From contig CAIQWD010000028.1 of NCBI GenBank assembly GCA_903875445.1, forward strand, positions 1 through 64,000: DNA of 64,000 nucleotides. The letters run 5' to 3'. Shown piece by piece: positions 25,480-33,279 of the stretch. A program made the position numbers and the translations under genes. Under the pieces are notes generated by a model. It searched no databases. It saw only the letters and a list, made by a program, of their open reading frames with translations, and was not told the DNA's origin. Within the stretch, counting starts at the first letter, position 1; each line of letters starts with the position of its first letter. The stretch is from an uncultured delta proteobacterium. Its GTDB lineage: Bacteria > Desulfobacterota > Desulfobulbia > Desulfobulbales > Desulfocapsaceae.

Positions 25480-26580
25480 TTATCCGATTACCGCCAGCAG
25501 ACCGTTGGTTACCGGGCTTTGGCTGTGTGAGGTTTTGCCGACCAGAGTTGCACAGGGAAGGCCCGGGAGAAGGTGGAAGCTGACCGAAATTCTGCCAAAC
25601 TGCTCTACCGGGAAATCGGCAACGAGCAGTTTCTCCCAGGCATCGGCGAGTGCGAGTTGTGGGTCGGTGAGTTCGAGACGCTGTCCGGGAGTTGCAGCCT
25701 GGCCGCTAAGATCCTTAAATAATTCCTCAATGGCAGCAAGGGAGGTACCGTTTTTTGATATAAATTTACGTACAATAGTACTTGCCTCACTACTGTTCCA
25801 GCCGATAAAGCCCGGGAGTTGCAGGCCGGCAATGAGCGGCGCCTGATGGCCCGTTTTTTGTTGATACATTTCCAGTAAAATGTCGCCACTCTCCTTGTCG
25901 CCGGCAAGGAACATCTCGCATTCCTCAATTTCCCCGGCAAGAAAAAAGGTTCTCCAGGCTTTAAACCTGTTCTTGATACTTGCCGCATTGCCATGCATGC
26001 TTTCCCGCCGGGCGGCAAGTTCGGCAAAGGGATTTTCCTCGTCCTCTATTTCGTCTTCTCCCTGCAGTTCTTTGAACAGCACCTTTTCTTCATCCTCAAG
26101 CACGGCCATATTGAGGGCAATTTCTTCTTCTTCTTGATCGAGCAGTTCGGCGATAGCCAAGACCAGCCGCGCCTGCCATATTTTTTCCGCCACCTGCTGC
26201 CGTCGTGTCTCGGCCGGAAGTTCCTCGGTACCGCTAAGAGAGCGGACGATTGATCGTTCCGACTCTTGCTCCCGGGCAGGAGCTGTGGTCATGCCGGCCA
26301 AAGTCAGGGAACTCAACTGGGCCGCATAATCATCCTTGCCGGTCTTGATGTCGGCCACCAGGCGGAGGAAGCGATTTCGATCCTCGCCCAGTGGGCAGGG
26401 AGTATGTACTTGACAGAACCCCGATTTAATGAAACTATCGGGAGATTCTTTGCCGTCCTCGACCGGGTCGCTTTCTACCGGCGAAAGGAGGTGCATATTT
26501 TGAAATAACAGAAAAATCGGATACTGGCGCAGGGACTGGATGGCCGTTCCCGGAAAATAAAGGGTATTAAGTGAGTTCAT
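25480..26580 (-). CDS. Acidic protein of unknown function
   Basis: About 366 aa from the ATG at 26580 (AAGG eight bases upstream); the frame extends to 26595. No signal peptide or membrane helix. Residues about 140-190 are strongly acidic and probably helical (QEEEEIALNMAVLEDEEKVLF). I recognise no domain. CGRC-type metal motifs are absent. Its start codon directly abuts the ATG of a divergent small membrane protein, so the two may share a regulatory region. Soluble cytoplasmic location is likely; function not assignable. Confidence 0.7.
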   Translation of the reverse strand: MNSLNTLYFPGTAIQSLRQYPIFLLFQNMHLLSPVESDPVEDGKESPDSFIKSGFCQVHTPCPLGEDRNRFLRLVADIKTGKDDYAAQLSSLTLAGMTTAPAREQESERSIVRSLSGTEELPAETRRQQVAEKIWQARLVLAIAELLDQEEEEIALNMAVLEDEEKVLFKELQGEDEIEDEENPFAELAARRESMHGNAASIKNRFKAWRTFFLAGEIEECEMFLAGDKESGDILLEMYQQKTGHQAPLIAGLQLPGFIGWNSSEASTIVRKFISKNGTSLAAIEELFKDLSGQAATPGQRLELTDPQLALADAWEKLLVADFPVEQFGRISVSFHLLPGLPCATLVGKTSHSQSPVTNGLLAVIG

Positions 26581-26880
26581 ATGAGGAACCTTCAAGGAAA
26601 AGTTTCATTATATCTTTCAGCGGCGCTCTATCTGCTCTTCAATTTGCGCCTGGGAGCCGATGTCCTGGCAACCTGTACCGCAACGCTGTGGCAGCTTGTT
26701 CAATATGCACCCTATATTGCCGGGATCGCCTACGTGATCATCGCTCTTCTCCAATATATGGCAGAGGGTGAGAAGATCCCCTGGGACCGGCGACTGCGGC
26801 TGTTTTTTGCCATCGGTATTCTGGCCGGGCTCTTCCTCGGCATTTACGAATATGCTGGTACTGGAGTAGGAAATCAATAA
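26581..26880 (+). CDS. Small membrane protein of unknown function
   Basis: 99 aa with three hydrophobic segments (about residues 9-35, 44-61 and 76-92) and a short acidic loop between the second and third. The ATG abuts the start codon of the divergent acidic protein, and its only nearby Shine-Dalgarno-like AAAGGG is about 16 bases away, so the start is uncertain. The hydrophobic pattern suggests a real protein. Not recognised. Confidence 0.6.
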   Translation: MRNLQGKVSLYLSAALYLLFNLRLGADVLATCTATLWQLVQYAPYIAGIAYVIIALLQYMAEGEKIPWDRRLRLFFAIGILAGLFLGIYEYAGTGVGNQ

Positions 26881-27737: not shown

Positions 27738-28232
27738 TCAAGGTGTTTTAACGATATTGGTGAAAAGATAATCATTATTTGCAACTGGCATATGGCACTG
27801 GAAACACTCGCTGACAAAACCGGCATCTTTTCCATAGGGTTTGAGCTCGTTCCCCACAAATCGAGCAAAGCCCCAACCGCCTGTATCTTTATACTTTTTT
27901 GCGTCTTTCACCATAAACTCAACCTGTACGAACGCTCCCGGTACGGTGGCTTCAGGGAAGGAAGGATGTTTTTCTGCTTTCCAGGCTGCTTTGGCCAGTA
28001 CGCTCCCATCCGGGAGTGGGTTCTTACCAGCATGCAATGCCACGATAGCGGTTTCGTTGCCGGTGATAATGCGGATATGGCTTTTATCCTCCCGGTAGGA
28101 AGGCGCTATGACTTTCCAGGCCATATATTCGGGATAATAGGCGATTCCGTTAGGAGCAACCGGCGTATTAGCAGCTGACATCAATGCCGGAGCGATTAGA
28201 CTGATTGCAAGAAGCAGCATAATTCTTTTCAT
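27738..28232 (-). CDS. Cytochrome P460 family protein
   Basis: 164 aa with an N-terminal signal peptide (MKRIMLLLAISLIAPALMSAA). The heme motif CFQCH lies near the C-terminus. The WKVIAPSY and KDAKKYKDTGGWGFARF stretches are typical of the P460 fold, where a lysine can cross-link the heme. The protein should be periplasmic. Characterised P460 proteins oxidise hydroxylamine; related family members do other things. The ATG at 28232 has AGGAG six bases upstream. It is divergent from the ECF sigma gene across 410 bases. Confidence 0.9.
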   Translation of the reverse strand: MKRIMLLLAISLIAPALMSAANTPVAPNGIAYYPEYMAWKVIAPSYREDKSHIRIITGNETAIVALHAGKNPLPDGSVLAKAAWKAEKHPSFPEATVPGAFVQVEFMVKDAKKYKDTGGWGFARFVGNELKPYGKDAGFVSECFQCHMPVANNDYLFTNIVKTP

Positions 28233-28642
28233 GTTCATCTCCTTTTGAAATAATAGGCTTAGAATAACTTCTTAGCGACAATACGATTTTACATCAAAAA
28301 AGCACATTTAATTTGTACGGATAACACTCAAGATCGAAATCAACCTGAGAGGAGGATAGCGCTCACCGGAAGATATTTGACAAAGAACTCCTCAGCAGAA
28401 GACTTCCCACTTTTCAGTTTATTTTTTCGGAGCCGCTTCTCTTTGCCTGGTAGACTATTATAAATTGTATACTCTCAGAGAGTCCAGCACAACCATGTTG
28501 CGCGAAGCATTTGATAATAAGGTGGAATATCAAGAAACAAATAAGAAACATCCTTTTTTGTAACCCTATGTGAAAAAACCTGGAACCTTTTCAATCTTCT
28601 TTGCATCTATATATCAAGACCAAAAAAACGGGAGACAAGGAT
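28233..28642. other. Divergent intergenic region between cytochrome P460 and ECF sigma genes
   Basis: About 410 AT-rich bases with no gene. It should contain both promoters; an ECF-type candidate next to the sigma gene is listed separately. No ECF-like element was found for the P460 gene. Confidence 0.6.
28582..28607 (+). promoter_or_regulatory. Candidate ECF-type autoregulatory promoter
   Basis: GGAACC (28582-28587), a typical ECF -35 core, followed after 16 bases by CATC (28604-28607). It lies about 35 bases before the sigma gene start, where an autoregulated promoter is expected. Confidence 0.45.
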
Positions 28643-29344
28643 ATGGAGTATGCGGGTGACTACAATTTGGCAGAAGGCATGACATCGGATCAGGATGTGA
28701 TACGGCGGGTCCTTGAAGGAGATACCGCAAGCTTTGAACTGATCATGCGCCGATATAACCAGCGGCTATATCGGATTGCCAGAGGGGTCCTTCGCAACGA
28801 GGCGGATGCCGAAGACGCAGTCCAGGATGCCTATATCCAGGCTTATCAAAACCTGGAGCGATTTCGGGGCAAGGGGGCATTGTCGGCCTGGTTGGCAAAA
28901 ATAACCGTCAACGAGGCACTGGGGCGTCTGCGCCGGTCTCGGCCTGCGAAAGAAGGTATTTCTTTGGATGATTTGCAGGAGACAGAGGAGGCGAATTTTA
29001 TGGCCAGTACTATTTCAAACTTGCCCAATCCGGAACAAAGTGCCGCACGGGGGGAGTTGCGCCGATTGCTCGAATCAGTCATTGATTCCCTCCCTGAGGT
29101 TTATCGACTGGCTTTTATTCTGTGTGGAGTTGAAGAGATGTCCGTGGCAGAGGCTGCCGATTGCCTTGAGATCGAACCCGCCACAGTAAAAACCCGATAT
29201 CATCGAGCGAAAAAAATTCTCCAGCAGAATTTATCGAGCGTGGTGGATTCCGCGACTGGCGAGGTATTCTCTTTCGCCGGAGAACGCTGTGACCGCATCG
29301 TCGCCGGAGTGTTCCGGCGACTGGAACTCCATGGTCGAAATTAG
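28643..29344 (+). CDS. ECF RNA polymerase sigma factor
   Basis: 233 aa from the ATG at 28643 (GGGAGACAAGGAT upstream). Region 2 spans about residues 30-98 (YRIARGVLRNEADAEDAVQDAYIQAYQNL) and region 4 about 135-195 (LPEVYRLAFIL, AADCLEIEPATVKTRYHRAK). A C-terminal extension ends in GERCDRIVAGVFRRL, containing a cysteine motif found in some ECF groups. No anti-sigma gene is next to it. The downstream genes (TTHB210-like and cupredoxin) are probably its targets. Confidence 0.95.
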   Translation: MEYAGDYNLAEGMTSDQDVIRRVLEGDTASFELIMRRYNQRLYRIARGVLRNEADAEDAVQDAYIQAYQNLERFRGKGALSAWLAKITVNEALGRLRRSRPAKEGISLDDLQETEEANFMASTISNLPNPEQSAARGELRRLLESVIDSLPEVYRLAFILCGVEEMSVAEAADCLEIEPATVKTRYHRAKKILQQNLSSVVDSATGEVFSFAGERCDRIVAGVFRRLELHGRN

Positions 29345-29421
29345 CTGGCACAAGAGCATCAAGCCGGTTGCGAGCTAACAATTATATGGCTATGGACAAA
29401 AAACCAAGAAGGAGTCATACC

Positions 29422-29823
29422 ATGAAAAAAATAATTGCCATATGTGCCACACTGCTTGTTTTAACCCTTCCTGCATTTGCTGCAGGCCCAAAAAAGATGC
29501 CTGATGCATCTTACAAAAAAGTCAGCGAACTGGTTGCTCTTCCGGATTTTCTTCCGGGAATGGGAACTCTGTACGTGAATCCTTCTACTCTTCCGGTCGG
29601 TCCGTTTCTGGCTTATGACAGGAAAGGGACACTGGTTTCAACTATCTACATGGTGCCGCTCAGCGACATGGAAAAACATACGGCTTTTACCGGATTGGCC
29701 ACAGGTAGCAACCAGGTGAAAAAGGTCGATATCACTTTTAATGCCGGCCACCCGGGGGTGGAAAGTCCTCACTACCATGTTACCCTATGGCACGTAAATC
29801 CTGAGTCGGCAATGGTGAAATAA
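29422..29823 (+). CDS. Exported TTHB210-like (DUF5602-type) protein
   Basis: 133 aa from the ATG at 29422, with AAGGAG ten bases upstream; the frame reaches back to 29368. Signal peptide of about 20 residues ends at AFA. The mature part has YVNPSTLPVGPFLAYDRKGTLVSTIYMVPL and a His-rich C-terminus (NAGHPGVESPHYHVTLWHV). It resembles the TTHB210 family of Thermus, which from memory is controlled by an ECF sigma/anti-sigma pair; the match is by recollection, not search. His residues suggest metal binding. Confidence 0.75.
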   Translation: MKKIIAICATLLVLTLPAFAAGPKKMPDASYKKVSELVALPDFLPGMGTLYVNPSTLPVGPFLAYDRKGTLVSTIYMVPLSDMEKHTAFTGLATGSNQVKKVDITFNAGHPGVESPHYHVTLWHVNPESAMVK

Positions 29824-29825
29824 CT

Positions 29826-30383
29826 ATGCTCAGCCGACGGAAAATCCTGATGGCTGGCGGCCTGTGGCTAGCCAGCCTCACTCTTGGTCGCTTCTGCCTG
29901 AGTGCTGAAGATGAAGATGTTGTTGAAATCTCCATGCGCAGCACTGAAGACGGATCAATCGTCACTTTCGATCCCATAGGTCTTCTGGTCCGACCTGGTC
30001 AGCGAATCCGCTGGGTAAATGATGGCAACAATGTTCATACGGCAACCGCATACCATCCGAAGAACGACAACCATGCCTTGCGTATTCCTGCTGCTGCCGT
30101 GCCATGGGATTCCGGATACCTGGTGAACCCCGGCGACAGTTTTGAAGTTAGGTTGACGGTGGAAGGGATTTACGATTATTATTGTATTCCGCATGAGATG
30201 TCTGGAATGGTCGGCCGGATTATCGTCTCTACCTCAAGGGACTATAATCAGGCTTCACTAAAGCCATATCCCGACAGTCCCGGGGTAGAAGAGTGGAGCC
30301 CTCTCCCCGATGCTGCTTTGCGGAATTTTCCCCCGATCCCCGCAATCCTTGAAAGAGGACGAATCGGCGGATCTAATCGATAA
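29826..30383 (+). CDS. Tat-exported cupredoxin (plastocyanin/azurin-like)
   Basis: 185 aa. The N-terminal SRRKIL plus hydrophobic stretch is a twin-arginine signal. The domain spans about residues 35-135 and shows the type 1 copper ligands His71, Cys120, His123 and Met128 (YYCIPHEMSGM). It starts 2 bases after the preceding stop, so it is coupled to the TTHB210-like gene. A terminator follows. Periplasmic electron carrier or copper-binding role is likely. The 50-residue tail (EEWSPLPDAALRNFPPIPAIL) is proline-rich and unusual. Confidence 0.92.
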   Translation: MLSRRKILMAGGLWLASLTLGRFCLSAEDEDVVEISMRSTEDGSIVTFDPIGLLVRPGQRIRWVNDGNNVHTATAYHPKNDNHALRIPAAAVPWDSGYLVNPGDSFEVRLTVEGIYDYYCIPHEMSGMVGRIIVSTSRDYNQASLKPYPDSPGVEEWSPLPDAALRNFPPIPAILERGRIGGSNR

Positions 30384-30386
30384 AAG

Positions 30387-30411
30387 CGGGGGCTTACCTT
30401 GTAAGCCCCCG
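30387..30411 (+). terminator. Terminator-like hairpin after the cupredoxin gene
   Basis: Perfect 11-base stem CGGGGGCTTAC/GTAAGCCCCCG around a 3-base loop, four bases after the cupredoxin stop. The downstream T content is modest (ATAATTTGTGT). Confidence 0.75.
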
Positions 30412-30507: not shown

Positions 30508-30573
30508 ATGTCAATGTTCTGCCACCAGTGCCAGGAAACAGCTGATTCATCTACTTTTAGTAGTGACTGTTGA
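30508..30573 (+). pseudogene. hcp: Stub of a hybrid cluster protein gene (hcp)
   Basis: A good ribosome binding site (ACAAGGAGAAAAAAC) precedes an ATG that opens MSMFCHQCQETAD. This matches the start of hybrid cluster protein (hydroxylamine reductase), whose first CxxC binds the proximal Fe-S cluster. After about 13 codons the match stops, and the frame ends after 21 codons in a TGA. The remaining ~500 codons are not found downstream, where a restriction-modification pair lies instead. So this is a truncated remnant rather than a functional small protein. Identification rests on a short match and is moderately secure. Confidence 0.7.
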
Positions 30574-30807: not shown

Positions 30808-31545
30808 TTACCTACATCTGGCAGCCTCTGCAGCAACGTGACCGGCCAAAGCCGCAACAAATGTTCTCAGTCCTGTCATTGCAGACATCTGTGAAAATTC
30901 CCCATTCTTGGAAGCACTACGCGGCGATGTTATGAGTGCGGCAGTGGTGTAAAGCTGTTCCTTTACCAATTTCTGACAGAGCAAGTCATAGCGGACGAGG
31001 TACGAGGCCCCCTTAAACTCCTTGAGAACGGGAAAATGCGGCGACACATCCCTTACAGGGCATCTGGATTTCGGGACATCCTCAACCATCATCAACCAGC
31101 CAACGAAAGGGCGCGGTTGTTTGCCGAAGGCCTCTTCACGGTAGGCTGTCCAGAAATCATGCGCGGTGCCGATGGCTTCTTCGGTTCGGTTATTGAAATT
31201 GTTTCCGAACGAACCCACTTGACTTTTCAGCTCGATGGCAACGATTAACTCGCCCTTGTACATGACCAGAAGATCCCAGAGTTTTGTCGGCCTGAAGTAG
31301 CCGGGCAGGGTCAGCAGTGCTCGGTTCTGATGCAGCTCGGCATCGGCGAGTCCATTAGCCCGCACGATGTCGAGCATCAAAGCCAAGAATCCATCCATGT
31401 TCTTGCCCGCTGTAACGCCGGCACGCTCGCCTTGGTCAGCCTTGCCGGATTCAACCTGTTTTTGTCTCGCTGCCGCACGGTTTCCCCAGAAGGCCTTTAC
31501 CGCCTCATGGGCTTTTTGTTGGTAATCGACAAGATCAAGGGCCAT
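30808..31545 (-). CDS. Type II restriction endonuclease, PaeR7I/XhoI family
   Basis: 245 aa, the same length as PaeR7I. The nuclease core is D91 with E105-L-K107 (PD-(D/E)xK type), followed by [18 protein letters not shown], a stretch characteristic of the family. PaeR7I-type enzymes cut CTCGAG. The gene starts immediately after the methyltransferase stop codon (TAA then ATG), so the pair is translationally linked. No controller gene is seen. CTCGAG sites exist in the window (for example 19901 and 47348), which the cognate methylase would protect. Specificity is inferred from the family. Confidence 0.93.
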
Positions 31546-33279
31546 TTAATCTCCATTGCCTCCAAGGGAGGATTTTTCTTCATTGGAAAGCGCAAACAGT
31601 TTAAATACTGCTTGATTGCAGGCGTGGATGTCCCGCTGTATTGCAGCTTCCACCAGCTCTGCCCGCAACCCTAGCGGGACATCAGCCCATTGCGGAATGC
31701 GGATGCGACGCAGGTACTGTGCCTGAAAGCGGAGGAATCCACCGCGCATTTTGGTCGAGTAGGTCGCAATGAAGAGACGTGTGACGGCCGAAAGCATTAC
31801 CGCTTGCAATGCCCGCAAGTCCCAATCGTCGGACGTGACATAGTAAAGGTTGTGATGGGGGTACAACTTTCCGGCCTCAAAAACAATATGGGCTTCTCCC
31901 TTGATGTCGGGAATCAGGAGCTTCGGCCTTGATGCCAGTTCCGGGGTGATACGGTCGATCGTGCGATACCAGTTGGCAGGGGTCTTTTGGGCGCAGTGAC
32001 GAGCAGAGATACTCTCCCGTCGCGCTTCCAAATAACGGCAGAGGCGTGGATAATTCCGCAGGTCGACAAGACCACCAGCCTCGGCAAACGGATTGATGAC
32101 GCCTTGACCGCGCCATTGCACCTCGCCGGATACTATGTCTTTTGTTGTAACCAGCGGCAGTTTGCGATCAGTCTCAACGTCGAGTGCATCAAAATCGCCT
32201 ATATAGGCCTTGTCCAAGCCGGTTGCTACGCCGATTCCCACTTTGCAACCCACCTTTTCCAAGCTTGGGAATTGTTTCTCAAGGCGACGAATCAGTGCCA
32301 TCTGATCCGAAGTTTCGAGCAACCACGGTTCCGACCCATGAGTGACTCGGGCGAGTTCTCGCACCGGCCCCACCTCTTTCGGAAGATTCCGAGCCCTTAG
32401 CGCGGCGGACAAAAGCGCAAGCGTGGCTCGATCAATGGCAGGGCGATGGGCAATGCGTGTGGCACCAGGAGTTTCCCGGCTAATTATAGTGATGGCGGGG
32501 TAGGCGCTCACATCGGAGTGAAACGCCGGGGTATCCACCATGTCGACATAGATTTTCATGTTAAACCGATCGGCCACCAGGCTGCGAAGCGGCCCTCCAT
32601 ATCGGTTTTTCATCCAGCGATCCGCACAGATAAAGCCAAGACAACCCCCCTTCGCCAACGCTAAAAGCGACCGCTCGATGAAGGGGATGTAGATATCGGC
32701 CCGGTCATACATAGTCTGGTAGCGGCGACGGTATGCCGCCAGTAAAGGTGCGGGAATCTGCTCTTGGCGAACATAGGGAGGGTTGCCGACAACAAAATCG
32801 AATTCCCCCTCAAGGGGTGATAGAAGGAAATCTCCCAGTATAAGCCACCGGTCAGCAAGTGCTACTGCGAATTGCTCCTCTATGTTTTCTTGTTTCAGTC
32901 GCTCGATCACGGCTAATCGAGTGGAAGAAAAAGTATTACGATGCAGCTCAACGGCGCGAATTGCGCCGCCTAACTCTTCCACAACAGCTTTTGTGTGTTG
33001 CGATGATTTCCATGCCGTCAGCAATCGACTGATCACAGGTAATAGAAAGTCACCGCCGCCGAAGGAAGGTTCCAAAATCCGCTTTTCATGGAGCGGTTGA
33101 TCCTCAGTGTAGCCCGCTAGATCAAGGATAAAATCGACTACCTCGATGCGTGTAAAGATTGCCCCGCGAGATTCGGCTCCTGCTGTTGCCGACAATTTCT
33201 CAATTGCCGCAGCGACAATAGGCGAATGAGTATAAACCGACTCGCTAAACAAATTAAGCTGCCTGGATGTCAAGTTCAT
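31546..33279 (-). CDS. Adenine-specific DNA methyltransferase of the PaeR7I-like system
   Basis: 577 aa N6-adenine methyltransferase of the Eco57I/TaqI-like (gamma) class. SAM motif [11 protein letters not shown] near residues 69-79, catalytic NPPYVRQE near 166-173. The C-terminal half is the target-recognition region. It precedes the endonuclease without a gap; methylase first is a common order that protects the host. It is slightly longer than M.PaeR7I as I recall it. Confidence 0.93.

Follow-up and report, generated by a model that had tools for sequence, protein, structure and literature searches.

An ECF29-type sigma factor with a conserved tail cysteine and exchanged exported partners in an uncultured delta proteobacterium

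We analysed a 64,000-nucleotide window from an uncultured delta proteobacterium of the Desulfocapsaceae (assembly GCA_903875445.1, contig CAIQWD010000028.1, positions 1 to 64,000), in which a gene for an extracytoplasmic function (ECF) sigma factor is followed by genes for two exported proteins. Four genes, encoding a cytochrome P460, the sigma factor, a TTHB210-like protein and a cupredoxin, were found where an earlier, sequence-only reading had placed them. The last three lie on the plus strand in a compact unit (28582-30411) that consists of a promoter, the sigma gene, the TTHB210-like gene, the cupredoxin gene and a hairpin. The sigma gene (28643-29344) encodes 233 amino acids, and its likely start is the ATG at 28643 rather than the TTG at 28601. 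The TTHB210-like gene, with a predicted exported product, runs from an ATG at 29422 to a stop at 29823, and the gene for the plastocyanin-like cupredoxin (29826-30383; PF00127, E 1.6e-12) starts two bases past that stop. A strong terminator-like hairpin closes the operon (30387-30411, plus strand; -21.4 kcal/mol, z -4.67); its T-run suits the minus strand better than the plus, and three terminator-like sites were found in the region, where shuffles predict 3.2. The P460 gene (27738-28238, minus strand; PF16694, E 9.5e-36) is a divergent neighbour.

The TTHB210-like protein scored 22 bits against PF18197, under the cut-off of 26.6, and a three-sequence profile matched TTHB210 itself (3vg8) with an E value of 2.3e-30, which marks the two as homologues. 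Only five of its 133 residues are histidines, four of them inside an HPGVExPHxHVxLxH block; the earlier description of an exported His-rich protein thus holds for export and overstates the histidines. The cupredoxin begins with a signal (SRRKIL) that looks Tat-like by eye, and a type-1 copper ligand set of H71, C120, H123 and M128 was read, also by eye, with an alignment to plastocyanin.

Pfam detected both sigma regions 2 and 4 in the sigma protein, which matched the family profile NF008888 with 282 bits (E 3.5e-84; cut-off 204), and the best 50 of 359 fold matches to its model were sigma factors or complexes containing them. RpoE8 of Sinorhizobium meliloti, whose locus (L165) we located by way of its published promoter sequence, is assigned to ECF29 in PMC6180224 (this and the other articles are cited from extracts). 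Because RpoE8 also exceeds the NF008888 cut-off, with 323 bits, and falls in one alignment and tree with the window protein, the latter is assigned by sequence to the RpoE8 group, ECF29. All seven other ECF29 proteins scanned passed the cut-off, L092 barely (205 bits). In the sigma tree of 67 rows, the neighbour of the window protein is an Ectothiorhodospiraceae protein (support 95/87), and both sit on long branches.

TTHB210 had suggested a parallel with Thermus thermophilus, where a homologous gene also stands beside an ECF sigma gene and a ferritin-like gene is close by. The homology was borne out and the parallel proved weaker than supposed: the Thermus sigma factor matches NF010500 and does not appear with NF008888, an anti-sigma gene is annotated, and the annotation shows no cupredoxin for about 5 kb around. 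NF010500 was not among the best 25 of 95 families for the window sigma, which places it outside the Thermus SigE/TTHB210 type.

To compare contexts we used a table of 63 loci: the window, 51 loci from a genome collection and 11 from plasmid records. In the genome scan, which was capped, 256 relatives were confirmed and the best 80 of them retained. Of the plasmid records, 222 matched the sigma and nine were taken; L154, L156 and L158 were added to the sample because they contain TTHB210. L035, whose sigma is apparently the same as that of L046, was left out of the table, the RpoE8 locus was added afterwards, and L001 and L004 were dropped as the window itself. The short locus L082 was omitted from the tree and from analyses A3 and A4, and L068 and all plasmid loci from A4. 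Also excluded was L155, where a TTHB210 copy and a cupredoxin fragment, with no sigma gene, lie between a pair of IS6 elements. As neighbour clustering yielded many antisense shadows, all counts use named profiles only.

Three sets of partners accompany the sigma gene. A TTHB210-like protein with a cupredoxin occurs at 10 of the 63 loci, a DUF4142 protein with a cupredoxin at 28 and Ferritin_2 with a cytochrome c at 11; Ferritin_2 stands alone at three, and none of these was found at 11. Two partner sets were never seen together at any of the 63. In L034, L039, L049 and L158 a distance of 2 to 3.5 kb separates the pair from the sigma gene, and in L034 the two are on opposite strands. Representative partners were checked with Pfam, including SMb20593, which is a DUF4142 protein; the TTHB210-like protein of L034 had no Pfam match. 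With plasmid loci excluded, and with partner profiles that were built from the ECF29 loci themselves and so favour matches there, a partner lay within 4 kb of 40 of 51 ECF29 sigma genes versus 0 of 29 other ECF genes from the same scan, and a partner plus carrier near 37 of 51 versus 0 of 29. A cupredoxin alone was near three of the 29. Mapped onto the sigma tree, the seven labels (counting 'none' and 'outgroup') require 19 changes, where the minimum is 6 and shuffled labels average 35.9; the pairs are therefore largely inherited, yet swapped.

These comparisons redraw the four-gene module of the sequence-only reading. The sigma, TTHB210-like and cupredoxin genes are a recurrent cassette and not scattered among related loci; P460 is scattered, being linked in one locus of 63, the window. 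The suggestion, made in that reading, of copper or nitrogen oxides as the signal is unproven, and we rejected copper as a constant signal because a cytochrome c stands in the cupredoxin's place at 11 of the 63 loci. Two further neighbours recur. At nine loci (L034, where one is annotated too, L040, L049, L058, L072, L075, L079, L083 and L088) a gene cluster that includes the annotated GTP cyclohydrolase I of L040 is no more than about 6 kb away from the ECF29 sigma gene. A family of small proteins that by eye resemble membrane proteins is close to the sigma gene at four (L052, L084, L034 and L061), two of which, L052 and L084, showed no partner pair of the usual kinds.

We next considered the promoter. 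The published ECF29 promoter has GGGAAC at -35 and GCATCCAA at -10 (PMC6180224). At 28581-28610 the window has TGGAAC, matching five of the six -35 bases, and GCATCTAT, matching six of the eight -10 bases, with a spacer one base longer than that of RpoE8. The candidate GGAACC-16-CATC reported earlier (GGAAC-N17-CATC, 28582-28607, plus strand) is thus, by its sequence, a slightly diverged ECF29 promoter. The regions upstream of 64 sigma genes and of 52 partner genes were searched for a loose pattern, GGAAC-N15-17-CATC, which was present in 61 of these 116 regions; the reversed pattern was found in none, and about 0.3 were expected from base shuffles. It preceded 32 of 64 sigma genes, 23 of 28 DUF4142 genes, 5 of 10 TTHB210 genes and 1 of 14 ferritin genes. 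At least one occurrence of the loose pattern was present at 49 of the 64 sampled loci. A strict pattern, GGAACNTT-N11-13-GCATC, matched the host genome (4.9 Mb, 117 contigs) once, at the operon itself, and its backwards control also matched once. Judged by the strict pattern, the predicted regulon in this genome is one operon.

Past region 4 the sigma factor carries a C-terminal extension (29267-29341, plus strand), delineated by alignment, motif comparison and an AlphaFold model as an FSFAGERC turn followed by a helix. Its cysteine, Cys216 (codon 29288-29290), is kept in 64 of 64 aligned ECF29 proteins, and the residues around it are nearly as constant (F209 in 61, F211 in 61, G213 in 63, R215 in 61). 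All 51 ECF29 proteins compared had a relaxed form of the tail motif and none of the 29 other ECF proteins from the same scan had it, a comparison that is partly circular, as one protein (L093) was placed among the controls for want of the motif. In the AlphaFold model (50 rows, pLDDT 86.9, pTM 0.64) the region-4 helix is predicted to extend to residue 208 and, after a turn, a last helix spans residues 214-232 with Cys216 near its start. The only other cysteines are C161 and C174, and no CXC motif is present. In a table of PMC8999054, ECF29 appears under 'Others' in the list of groups that have regulatory extensions.

The operon has an isolated position in its phylum. NF008888 was matched above cut-off in 1 of 57 relatives and 1 of 297 phylum genomes, in both cases the host genome; 36 further genomes of the 297 matched at 1e-45 or better but under the cut-off (best 184 bits), and most of these matches stop short of the tail, at about model position 200. 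A TTHB210-like protein was likewise found in 1 of the 297. As the cassette occurs in one genome of this phylum sample, the operon looks laterally acquired, and its regulator would then travel along or be built in. We tried ThrH as a synteny anchor for dating the insertion and rejected it: 5 of 15 genus genomes had a match, and the two relatives with a close full-length match, one on a contig of only 3.7 kb, had no further convincing flank in common with the window. The host, which carries dsrA, is most likely a sulfate reducer.

A conventional regulator would be an anti-sigma factor, and the sequence-only reading had seen none adjacent. We covered open reading frames (ORFs) of at least 70 amino acids at 25-33.5 kb and of at least 140 at 17-25 and 33.3-42 kb, and among these housekeeping, restriction-modification, TPR and recBC-like genes, judged mostly by eye, no anti-sigma was recognised; a linked gene just outside the annotated ones, which would have spoken against that reading, did not turn up. 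A search of the whole genome for an unlinked one with zf-HC2 gave no match. Not all anti-sigmas are zf-HC2 proteins, and two nearby ORFs (25480-26595, minus strand, and 26581-26880, plus strand) have no Pfam match. Two clusters of small proteins (16 and 33), membrane-like by eye, also lie near the sigma gene at six and four of the 63 loci. On these grounds the sigma factor might be inhibited by an anti-sigma encoded elsewhere or by a neighbouring protein of unrecognised type. We consider this improbable, given the zf-HC2 result, the isolation of the operon in the phylum sample and the lack, on inspection by eye, of any conspicuous anti-sigma-like family in the clusters common to many of the 63 loci. 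The conservation of the tail cysteine, together with the lack of a recognised anti-sigma, instead favours self-regulation through that residue as likely, as had been guessed for a C-terminal Cys motif, although the set-aside protein L093 is without it.

We give about even chances to a model in which a laterally acquired, self-transcribing ECF29 operon is governed by the tail of its own sigma factor and the conserved cysteine, and produces an exported redox couple. Acting at the GGAAC/GCATC promoter, the sigma factor would drive transcription of the operon that encodes it, in positive feedback. The C-terminal hairpin of about 25 residues would most likely hold and release the activity of the sigma factor, with Cys216 as the probable sensing or ligand residue, through thiol oxidation, nitrosation or persulfide formation, or by binding a metal or haem. 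The operon would yield an exported pair, plausibly a periplasmic redox-protection couple. One member is a His-cluster protein, TTHB210-like in the window and of DUF4142 or Ferritin_2 type at other loci; the other is a small electron carrier, a cupredoxin in the window and a cytochrome c at some other loci.

The closest known system is RpoE8-SMb20593-AmcY of S. meliloti. It shares the NF008888 family, the promoter type, an exported protein and a cupredoxin downstream, and the tail motif (FPFAGKRC versus FSFAGERC), and the extracts of PMC6180224 report no identified anti-sigma; it differs in its middle gene, SMb20593, which belongs to DUF4142 (PF13628, E 2.5e-37) and is not TTHB210-like. In that study, which calls the regulation a mystery, 126-fold overexpression of rpoE8 activated no target, as expected if the sigma factor is made inactive and awaits a signal. 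The same result speaks against control by the amount of sigma factor, in which transcription of the sigma gene is set by an upstream regulator and the tail does no more than stabilise region 4. A self-activating promoter with a second promoter would suffice for such control, and a PhaR/AniA motif site before S. meliloti rpoE8 is marked 'Efficient' in a table of PMC12542648 (extract without column headings). Stability alone would hardly explain a cysteine kept in all 64 proteins, and we regard control by amount as rather unlikely.

Several observations weigh against our preferred model. In nodules, amcY rose 2.6-fold in an all-ECF deletion and 3.2-fold in an rpoE8-SMb20593 deletion (PMC6180224), which is opposite to simple activation. 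No partner was recognised at the 11 loci counted above. L093, a sigma-profile match at 3e-48, was set aside for its lack of tail motif and cysteine, and its place in the tree, poorly supported (91/20), is inside ECF29. The tail is a helix-turn-helix in the model, and a pTM of 0.64 makes its packing position uncertain. CorE and CorE2 of Myxococcus xanthus (ECF238, formerly ECF44) likewise have no anti-sigma and a Cys-containing C-terminal extension, which acts as the sensor (PMC8999054), but CorE combines a cysteine-rich domain with a linker CXC, neither of which the window sigma has; a single conserved tail cysteine is far less. Finally, sigma-less TTHB210-cupredoxin operons of rhizobia (L152, L153 and L157) were without the ECF29 pattern, their best matches being 6 to 7 of 9 bases within 300 bases upstream, so that this pair is not always under ECF29 control. 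These three operons have another upstream sequence in common, around TGCAYTGAAAYGCCA (by eye); the pair is followed by a histidine kinase gene in L152 and by an annotated ATP-binding protein in L153.

In its broadest form the proposal is tentative. ECF29 sigma factors might be one-protein sensors in which a 25-residue hairpin with one cysteine detects an oxidant, NO, sulfide or a metal, gates the sigma factor and drives a repeatedly exchanged periplasmic couple. If true, this would be a minimal form of sensing by a sigma factor, with neither an anti-sigma nor an added domain. The alignment points to Cys216 and the 25-residue tail as mutation targets for RpoE8-type switching. To judge by the partner table, TTHB210-like, DUF4142 and Ferritin_2 proteins seem interchangeable under one regulator, as do cupredoxin and cytochrome c; for three exported families about which little is understood, this suggests a shared role that can be tested. 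A compact operon that brings its regulator along also lends itself to transfer into a laboratory strain. Literature on ECF29, rpoE8/amcY, TTHB210/DUF5602 and DUF4142 with sigma or cupredoxin gave no account of the TTHB210-like or ferritin versions; an earlier notice of the cysteine or the contexts in the main ECF classification is possible.

The divergent P460 is predicted to be a hydroxylamine oxidase. Its nearest solved protein is 6hiu (E 1.8e-44), the P460 of Methylococcus capsulatus (McP460; PMC11928373), and its K83, E107 and R56 align with the cross-linking Lys, distal carboxylate and Arg cap (K78, D102 and R50) listed there, the carboxylate being Asp in McP460 and Glu in the window; CFQCH at 145-149 aligns with the CxxCH haem site. 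The extracts of PMC11928373 link McP460 to no sigma factor. That P460 retains the residues listed for active enzymes could suggest a nitrosative-stress island, with sigma factor, P460 and the hybrid-cluster protein gene hcp, now a fragment, as one response unit to hydroxylamine or NO. An hcp-type start lies about 125 bp past the cupredoxin gene, the genome has two NrfA-family matches and, elsewhere, two Hcp-type gene starts (contigs C38 and C56), and genes for NnrS, truncated haemoglobin or hemerythrin lie near some ECF29 sigma genes. The single linkage among 63 loci, counted with a profile of the window P460 alone that distant P460s could escape, and the lack of the ECF29 pattern before P460 and the hcp fragment make such an island quite improbable. 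The Prismane family, which also includes CO dehydrogenases besides Hcp, has five matches in the host genome, two of them with the Hcp-type start; it is uninformative here, being present in 17 of 18 genomes searched. We rejected P460 as a module member; it is a neighbour and not part of the regulon. A second P460 gene on contig C53 (L163, C53:16500-21500; about 2232-2525) has its N-terminal part missing and is probably a pseudogene.

The flanks of the operon, many of whose genes were named by eye, differ. On the left are housekeeping-like genes, and on the right, adjoining both the operon and the broken hcp start, is a restriction-modification pair on the minus strand (30808-33279), an XhoI-type endonuclease (PF04555, E 4e-100) and an Eco57I/TaqI-like methylase. 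The hcp 5' end (30508-30573, plus strand) reads MSMFCHQCQETAD and then a stop, has a good ribosome site and is cut off beside this pair. A Prismane-family gene on the same contig was rejected as its source, as the two have no DNA match; among the own-genome starts read, the Hcp-type start on C38 is the most similar to the fragment.

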